From assembly GCA_025728475.1 (NCBI GenBank), contig JAOBJN010000001.1, positions 153,085-217,084 of the forward strand: a stretch of DNA of 64,000 nt, in the 5' to 3' direction. The notes beneath the pieces were generated by a model. The model had not been told where the DNA came from. It did no database searches and worked only from the letters and a program-made list of their open reading frames with translations. The DNA comes from Candidatus Lightella neohaematopini (GTDB lineage: Bacteria; Pseudomonadota; Gammaproteobacteria; Enterobacterales; Enterobacteriaceae). The number at the start of each line of letters is the position of its first letter. Position 1 is the stretch's first letter. The position numbers and the translations under genes were made by a program. Of this stretch, positions 15,900 to 47,330 are shown piece by piece.

Positions 15900-16046
15900 A
15901 TGAAAAGAACTTTTCAACCATCCATCTTAAAAAGATTACGTAAACATGGTTTTCGTCATCGTATGAAAACAAATAGTGGACGTAAAATCTTATCAAATAG
16001 AAGAACTAAAAAAAGATTATATTTAACAGTTTCAAGTAATAAATAG
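15900..16046 (+). CDS. rpmH: 50S ribosomal protein L34
   Basis: A 48-residue basic protein that begins [20 protein letters not shown], almost the invariant L34 N-terminus, and ends LTVSSNK (E. coli LTVSK, 46 residues). It is a structural protein of the large subunit that contacts 23S rRNA. The ATG at 15900 is preceded by AAGGA. The stop TAG (16044-16046) is followed immediately by the rnpA ATG, the same close coupling seen across bacteria. The gene is first of the plus-strand rpmH-rnpA-yidD-yidC-mnmE cluster that flanks the replication origin in many bacteria. Confidence 0.96.
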
Positions 16047-16310
16047 ATGAGTAAAAAATATAAATTTCCAAAAAAACAAAAATTATTGTTTAATAAACAA
16101 TTTAGTTTAGTTTTTAATAAACTAGAATATTTTAGTTTTGATAAACAATTTACTATAATAGGATACACAAATAATTTGAATTATTCTCGTATTGGTATTA
16201 TAGTACCAAAAAAAAATATTAGGAAATCCTTTCAAAGGAATAGAGTAAAAAGATTAATACGTGAATATTTTCGTTTAAATATACATAATTTTTTTTTATG
16301 GATTATGTAA
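16047..16310 (+). CDS. rnpA: Ribonuclease P protein component, truncated by a frameshift
   Basis: Protein cofactor of RNase P, which with M1 RNA trims 5' leaders of tRNA precursors. The open frame gives 87 residues against 119 in E. coli. The central RNA-binding region is intact (SRIGIIVPKKNIRKSFQRNRVKRLIREYFRL, quoted in parts: IVPKKN, RNRVKR), but after HNFFLWIM it stops at 16308-16310. The missing family sequence continues in another frame from 16298 (MDYVILVKKYLSEI, compare E. coli MDFVVVAKKGVADL). The switch is at a T9 run (16289-16297); ten Ts would restore about 106 residues. The gene may be expressed through polymerase slippage, work as a short form, or be decaying. Confidence 0.85.
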   Translation: MSKKYKFPKKQKLLFNKQFSLVFNKLEYFSFDKQFTIIGYTNNLNYSRIGIIVPKKNIRKSFQRNRVKRLIREYFRLNIHNFFLWIM

Positions 16311-16366
16311 TTTTAGTAAAAAAATATTTGTCAGAAATAAAACAAATTAATTTTAAAATATGTTAA
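16289..16366 (+). other. T9 slippage tract and out-of-frame rnpA tail
   Basis: T9 at 16289-16297 is followed at 16298-16366 by a 22-codon open stretch plus TAA that reads as the rnpA C-terminal part. One added T places it in frame with the first 81 codons. RNA polymerases slip on runs of about nine or more A or T, and such rescue is known for insect endosymbiont genes. The restored protein would still lack roughly the last ten residues of the E. coli form. Confidence 0.75.
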
Positions 16367-16372
16367 GATAAT

Positions 16373-16600
16373 ATGATATTTTTATCAAAAACATTAATTA
16401 GTATAATACATTGGTATAAGATAATAATTAGTCCTTTATTAGGAAAACGTTGTAGATTTATTCCTAGTTGTTCACAATTTGCTATAGAAGCAATTATTAC
16501 ATTTGGTTTAGTAAAAGGTATTTGGTTTTCTATAAAAAGAATTATTAAGTGTTTACCAATATTTAATGGTGGTTATGATCCAATTGATAAATATTTATAA
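16373..16600 (+). CDS. yidD: Membrane protein insertion efficiency factor YidD
   Basis: Small membrane-associated protein that helps YidC-dependent insertion. The 75 residues (E. coli 85) hold the family signature: [23 protein letters not shown] in parts ([21 protein letters not shown]), then [10 protein letters not shown], and a C-terminal [12 protein letters not shown]. The CRFxPSCSxY-type cysteine motif is intact. It sits between rnpA and yidC as in nearly all bacteria; in E. coli it overlaps rnpA, while here it starts six bases after the restored rnpA stop. Only the C-terminal tail is shorter than usual. Confidence 0.93.
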
Positions 16601-46328: not shown

Positions 46329-47330
46329 ATGTTAATTAAAAATATAGTTTTTAGTGCTATACAACCATCAAATAATTTAACAATTGGTAACTATATTGGT
46401 GCAATTAAACAATGGATAAATATACAAAATATTTATAAGTGTATTTATTGTATAGCTGATTTACATGCTATTACTAATAATAATTTTAATAACTTAAAAA
46501 CATTGTCATTAAATACATTAGCATTATACTTAGCTTGTGGTGTCGATCCTGATATAAATATTATTTGTTTACAATCTAAAATAGTTGAACATAGTCAACT
46601 ACATTGGATACTTAGCTGTTATGTTAATTGGAATAAATTAAAGCGTATGACACAATTTAAGAGTAAATATATGACATATAATCATTTATCAAATAAAATT
46701 ACAGCTGGATTATTTACTTATCCAATATTAATGACATCAGATATATTATTATATCAAACTAATTATGTACCAGTTGGTTATGATCAAAAACAACACTTAG
46801 AATTTAGTAGAGATATAGCAAAAAATTTTAATAAAAAATATGGTAATATTTTCACTATACCTAAACCTCTTATACCAAAAATAGGTAAAATAACATCTTT
46901 ACTTAATCCTATGAAAAAAATGTCTAAATCAGATATTAATGATAATAATTATATTTCTTTATTAGATAAACCAGAATTAGTTAAAAAAAAAATTAATAAT
47001 GCTATTACTGATTCTGATAATCCACCAATTATAAAATATGATTTAAAAAATAAACCGGGAATTTCTAACTTATTAAATATATTGTCTGTACTCACTAATA
47101 CAAATATAATAGATTTAGAAAAAGATCTTAATAATATTAATTATAAACAACTTAAAAAAATAGTAGCTAATGAAATTAATAATATTCTATTCAAAATACA
47201 AAAAAAATATTTTTCTATTAGAAATAAAGAAAGATACTTAAATAGTATATTAATTAGTGGTAATAGAAAAGCTAAAATTATAGCTGAAAATACTTTAAAT
47301 AAAGTACATAAAGTAATTAATATAAAATAG
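46329..47330 (+). CDS. trpS: Tryptophanyl-tRNA synthetase
   Basis: Charges tRNA-Trp. 333 residues (E. coli 334). Class I signatures: the HIGH-equivalent NLTIGNYIGA near residue 18-27 after SAIQPS, and KKMSKSD. CIADLHAIT and YPILMTSDILLYQTNYVPVG with DQKQHLE are conserved. The start ATG is 59 bases after rpe. In E. coli it follows gph in the dam-containing operon, so position is ancestral. Confidence 0.96.
   Translation: MLIKNIVFSAIQPSNNLTIGNYIGAIKQWINIQNIYKCIYCIADLHAITNNNFNNLKTLSLNTLALYLACGVDPDINIICLQSKIVEHSQLHWILSCYVNWNKLKRMTQFKSKYMTYNHLSNKITAGLFTYPILMTSDILLYQTNYVPVGYDQKQHLEFSRDIAKNFNKKYGNIFTIPKPLIPKIGKITSLLNPMKKMSKSDINDNNYISLLDKPELVKKKINNAITDSDNPPIIKYDLKNKPGISNLLNILSVLTNTNIIDLEKDLNNINYKQLKKIVANEINNILFKIQKKYFSIRNKERYLNSILISGNRKAKIIAENTLNKVHKVINIK

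Follow-up and report, generated by a model that had tools for sequence, protein, structure and literature searches.

The rnpA gene of Candidatus Lightella neohaematopini L207 is located between rpmH and yidD on the forward strand of the window, the whole stretch of 64,000 nucleotides that we analyzed, which comes from a genome of 462,938 bases in five contigs. According to the available portion of PMC9376444, L207 lives as a symbiont in the louse Neohaematopinus pacificus, which infests Tamias alpinus; the first-pass annotation, made from the letters of the DNA alone, had placed it in an insect endosymbiont, and the organism is indeed an endosymbiont of a chipmunk louse. Directly 5' of rnpA lies rpmH (15900..16046, +), a 48-aa ORF for ribosomal protein L34 with orthologs in all seven Lightella genomes. 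The zero frame of rnpA (16047..16310, +) comprises 87 codons, as had been annotated, and encodes RnpA through the RNR helix followed by an out-of-frame tail, LWIM, before the stop codon at 16308-16310. The gene contains two long homopolymers, an A9 run (16208..16216, +) that is in frame in 7 of 7 Lightella genomes and a T9 run (16289..16297, +) that is likewise T9 in all seven and is the proposed site of frame recovery. Starting at the ATG at 16298, immediately after the T9 run, the -1 frame reads MDYVILVKKYLSEIKQINFKIC and ends with a TAA stop at 16364-16366. This 3' part of rnpA (16298..16366, +; 22 codons plus TAA) covers the part of RnpA in which its last beta strand lies. The start of yidD (16373..16600, +) is 6 nt past the stop of this extension. 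The names rpmH, dnaN, gyrB, yidC, mnmE, and ubiA used here are those we presume from the sequences, for rpmH also from its position, while Pfam was used to verify rnpA and yidD. The 87-aa product matched the RnpA family PF00825 with 63.6 bits (cut-off 22.3) and yidD matched PF01809 with 91.4 bits. The match of the rnpA product covered only positions 1-75 of the 109 in the profile, which indicates that the end characteristic of the RnpA family is missing.

Over its residues 4-98, the RnpA of G005, a Lightella genome in which the gene is intact, aligned with E. coli RnpA (PDB 2LJP; E = 1.1e-17), including the part encoded after the T run, where MDYIILVKKYLLEI of G005 was aligned onto MDFVVVAKKGVADL of E. 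coli RnpA (PDB 2LJP). Together with the reading of the frames, this alignment bears out the earlier proposal that RnpA continues from 16298 in another frame. In the broken gene the region of the last strand is encoded by the -1 frame only, and the 87-aa product stops after the RNR helix, so that truncation removes the last-beta-strand region of the fold. The region of the last helix is short even in the intact G005 protein. An AlphaFold model of the G005 protein, made from a six-row alignment, was unusable (pLDDT 55.5, with a helix in place of the expected strand).

We aligned the seven Lightella genomes (G000-G006, where G000 is the genome of the window itself) over the region from rpmH into yidC. 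The break was identical in five of them (G000-G004), which have AA or GA before the T9 run and an open frame of 87 aa. The other two, G005 and G006, have AAA or AAG before the T9 run and an intact rnpA of 111 and 122 aa, respectively. The end of RnpA is short and variable across the genus, with 22-38 codons after the T9 run. A phylogenetic tree was then constructed from an alignment of seven gene segments with 7,050 columns. In this unrooted tree, the split between the five broken genomes and the two intact ones had 100% ultrafast bootstrap support, and the nodes within the five were weak (68-76%). Because the tree separates the broken from the intact genomes, the simplest reading of the sequences is a single old loss, on the branch leading to the five lineages, and an assembly error is very unlikely; five repeated losses at a hotspot are formally possible. 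The intact state is taken as ancestral since rnpA is also intact in other relatives.

The T run has the same length in the broken genomes as in the two intact relatives, which carry one extra base before it. By parsimony, the lost base therefore most likely lay just 5' of the T9 run. The frameshift had initially been assigned to the run itself; the frame does break at T9, but the base was probably lost beside it. A change from T10 to T9 within the run is possible but requires additional substitutions. We also considered whether the conservation of the run is a sign of selection and rejected this, as T9 is retained no more often than Phe codon usage predicts (expected retention 0.49 for seven genomes and 0.65 for five).

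The comparison also bears on the possibility, raised at the outset, that the break is an error of sequencing or assembly at a homopolymer. Homopolymers are error-prone, and the break was judged from assemblies. However, five assemblies agree on the same lesion, and those that are named were obtained from different lice, sequenced with paired 100- or 160-nt reads and assembled with SPAdes according to the accessible part of PMC9376444. Moreover, the intact relatives have the same T9 run, which means that the difference between broken and intact genomes is a base other than T. We rejected assembly error on these two grounds, and an artefact is scarcely credible.

We surveyed reading frames by comparing ORFs of at least 60 aa from the window and from the equivalent stretches of the other genomes with tblastn (about 66 kb in G001, G005, and G006, 38 kb in G002, 9.2 kb in G003, and 3.5 kb in G004). 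In these syntenic stretches, rnpA was the only clean mid-gene frame break that passed the filter. The other matches to the filter were ubiA, the 5' end of a gene of 465 aa, at which the ORF of G005 alone extends 28 codons further upstream, and matches upstream of rpmH in G000 and G003 that we read as the chance extension of a G002 ORF. The window contains nine A/T runs of at least nine bases, all within ORFs, and only the T9 run of rnpA is at a break; no break was found by the tblastn survey at the other eight. The frame of rnpA is thus broken only once, at an A/T run of at least nine bases, and the rest of the gene is open. Among the other runs, an A10 run at 46983-46992 lies in an intact L207 ORF and is interrupted in G001, G005, and G006 (AT, then A8), suggesting that this long run may be recent in L207. 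For ubiA, we observed an intact copy of 284 codons in G002, a copy with 22 stops in one frame in G001, and weak remains in G005 and G006.

To determine how the sequence after the break has evolved, we fitted a codon model to 2,299 codon columns from six segments (dnaN, gyrB, mnmE, yidC, yidD, and the first 83 codons of rnpA). The tree of the five broken genomes comprised a total of 0.64 neutral substitutions per site. At a synonymous rate fixed to that of the six segments, the 21-codon extension in these genomes evolved slowly, with an omega of 0.34 (0.18-0.61; p = 1.4e-4 against 1). When the synonymous rate was left free, its estimate was 1.00, equal to that of the six segments, and omega was again 0.34, with p = 0.16 against an omega of 1; as this second test is non-significant, constraint at the nucleotide level is also possible. 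Omega was 0.15 for the N-terminal part of rnpA and 0.09-0.21 for the other five segments, and the higher value of the extension compared with the rest of rnpA is what partial relaxation would give. Of 3000 neutral simulations, none had seven or fewer variable residues among the 21 (mean 14.3), at most 13 variable sites (mean 23.0) occurred in 0.2%, and 2.4% were free of stops in every lineage.

The break has been kept across five of the seven genomes without decay downstream, as the extension contains no stop over 21 codons and no indel over 63 nt in any of the five. In G001, one base has been lost just past the 21 tested codons, altering the C-terminus. The window also contains a decayed gene for comparison: ubiA of L207 (24002-24841, -) has 10 indels in 839 aligned nt relative to the intact G002 copy, and no long open frame. 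At the indel rate of ubiA, the chance of an indel-free extension would be about 0.10, so the absence of indels is weak evidence by itself. Taken together with the simulations and the fixed-rate test, the extension does not look like decaying sequence, and the plain decay that the first-pass annotation had listed as an alternative is made unlikely by the same lesion in five genomes and by the constraint on the downstream frame.

RnpA could instead now be a protein of 87 residues, with the extension as a leftover that erodes slowly, owing either to the short time elapsed or to constraint on the DNA ahead of yidD. The open frame of 87 aa in all five genomes would fit this explanation, as would an extension omega twice that of the N-terminal part, the non-significant free-rate test, and the short and variable end of RnpA in the genus. 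Against it, neither a stop nor an indel has arisen over 21 codons in 0.64 neutral substitutions per site, the number of variable residues is half that expected, and the fold would be without its last-beta-strand region. We consider such a shortened protein unlikely.

RNase P is needed for making tRNAs. A full-length match to rnpB, the gene for its RNA partner, was found in six of the seven Lightella genomes; none was found in G003, whose assembly is in about 100 contigs. PF00825 was detected in 388 of 392 genomes of the family. Given a full-length rnpB in six of seven genomes and the presence of RnpA almost throughout the family, loss of the whole RNase P is unlikely, and we rejected it as an explanation.

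We propose that rnpA of Lightella carries a tolerated ancestral frameshift that is probably bypassed at the T9 run, most likely by slippage of RNA polymerase. One base would have been lost beside the run in the common ancestor of the five lineages and the gene retained. RNA polymerase would then stutter on T9 and add a U to some transcripts, placing the 3' part of rnpA back in frame and allowing some full-length RnpA (about 109-112 aa) to be made for RNase P, while the truncated 87-aa form would be made alongside from the remaining transcripts. We infer that bypass occurs, that transcription is its main route, and that RnpA functions in its full-length form.

Conserved homopolymer frameshifts in Blochmannia and Buchnera are reportedly corrected by transcript slippage, as attributed to Tamas in 2008 and Wernegreen in 2010. 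Eight frameshifted genes are described in Blochmannia vafer (PMC3017870), and corrected transcripts at poly(A) runs amount to 12-50% in symbionts of aphids and ants (PMC5009743), as stated in the available portions of both papers. As far as those portions and that of PMC4389277 describe the Blochmannia and Buchnera cases, Lightella resembles them in being an AT-rich insect symbiont with one break at an A/T run of at least nine bases, in a gene that is otherwise intact, and in a break that is common to related lineages and without clear decay downstream. It differs from the cases described there in that the gene is rnpA, the run is of T on the coding strand, and the lost base probably flanks the run.

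The likely reliance on a bypass at the T run that was suggested when the DNA was first annotated is supported by the five genomes with the same lesion and by the constrained downstream frame. The part of that suggestion which named the polymerase is less secure, because the site also offers another route. The T9 run and the following A form the heptamer U_UUU_UUA in -1 phase (16292..16298, +), as read from the sequence, with the zero-frame codons TTT at 16293-16295 and TTA at 16296-16298, which makes -1 ribosomal frameshifting a live rival. Under this translational bypass, ribosomes would slip back one base on the heptamer and go on at the AUG at 16298, and the product would bear Leu or Phe at the slip site. 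Each of the five broken genomes has the heptamer exactly in -1 phase, and the HIV-type U_UUU_UUA is known to shift, with 70-80% Leu and 20-30% Phe; in E. coli, however, it is far less shifty than A_AAA_AAG (both from the part of PMC5009743 available to us). The site thus has an in-phase X_XXY_YYZ heptamer but no stimulatory RNA structure was detected, as the predicted RNA fold of 16280-16400 was not significant (z -0.63). No Shine-Dalgarno-like stimulator was seen upstream when judged by eye, and any T9 followed by A gives this heptamer by accident. Compared with programmed -1 sites (HIV-type U_UUU_UUA and dnaX A_AAA_AAG), the rnpA heptamer is likewise in exact phase but differs in having no stimulator found and no sign of a designed two-product gene. 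We consider a ribosomal shift unlikely. The two routes predict different peptides across the site, FFFM if the transcript slipped and mostly FFLM if the ribosome shifted.

An exact 8-bp inverted repeat, TACATAAT/ATTATGTA, surrounds the T run at 16283-16310. Over the five broken genomes, 95% of cells were paired, no covariation was found, and one pair fails in two of the five; the fold at this repeat was no stronger than those of shuffled sequences.

The full protein could also be supplied in two pieces, if the 3' part were re-initiated at the AUG at 16298, shortly ahead of the stop of the zero frame (16308-16310), and the pieces then assembled. An ATG is present here in 7 of 7 genomes, and in the five with the break it overlaps the last part of the zero frame. 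However, Met is ordinary at this position in the family (MDF in E. coli) and in the intact Lightella genomes, no Shine-Dalgarno sequence was seen by eye before the AUG, and a piece of 22-25 residues would need to fold onto the N-terminal part. We give a split RnpA little credence.

To examine rnpA beyond Lightella, we used 100 small genomes from other genera (rounded size up to 900 kb), picked by eye among the matches listed family-wide. A PF00825 match was found in 99 of them, and in 5 of these 99, most of which were judged from search rows rather than from DNA, rnpA was apparently split into two frames. Three of the apparent splits, in G145 and G232 at an A10 run and in G368 at an A11 run, are in the lysine-rich motif before the RNR helix (L072, L073, and L074), the same motif of rnpA that holds the A9 run of Lightella (16208..16216). 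G232 and G368 belong to one genus but differ in run length. The apparent split in G092 (L080) lies close to the start of rnpA, where T10 and A9 runs occur. These four resemble Lightella in that rnpA is apparently broken once, within or close to a long A/T run, with the remainder open, but the runs differ from the Lightella T9, being A10, A10, and A11 before the RNR helix in G145, G232, and G368 and T10/A9 near the start in G092. In the fifth, G011 (L038 2340-2720, -), rnpA reads CCC TAG with the remainder open in the +1 frame and no long A/T run. We take CCC-TAG to resemble a +1 shift-prone site, and this split reflects either such a site or an assembly error. The gene is open in genus mates of G232 and G368 (G120 and G305), of G145 (G248), and of G011 (G185 and G272). 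As G120, G305, and G248 are open, the apparent splits in G232, G368, and G145 represent separate events. Separately, three genomes of genus g126 (G240, G312, and G372) each have one in-frame TGA in rnpA, a codon that is possibly reassigned in this genus and read as Trp.

A literature search covering titles and the beginnings of abstracts returned no earlier report of an rnpA frameshift in endosymbionts. The main texts of PMC3017870, PMC4389277, PMC9376444, PMC12175528, and PMC3711429 do not mention rnpA, and the terms "frameshift" and "RNase P" are absent from the main text of PMC9376444. As far as these searches go, the phenomenon is known, and the gene (rnpA) and the genus (Lightella) are new.

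It is also conceivable, though we find it doubtful, that the broken frame is kept as a useful or harmless control of dose, with slipped transcripts or -1 shifting on U_UUU_UUA setting the supply of RnpA. If this were true, rnpA would be a recurrent slippage-tolerant gene in reduced symbionts, with T9 in Lightella and A10, A11, and T10 in three other genera.

On the reading that we favor, a tolerated frameshift probably bypassed at T9, frameshift bypass would extend to the protein subunit of RNase P in a symbiont genus for which, as far as our searches go, it is new, at a lesion that has outlasted the divergence of five lineages. Automatic annotation would label such an rnpA as truncated or as a pseudogene. 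The gene may also provide a natural test of the minimum of correct RnpA that a cell needs, and of whether symbionts use a slip of the polymerase or of the ribosome.
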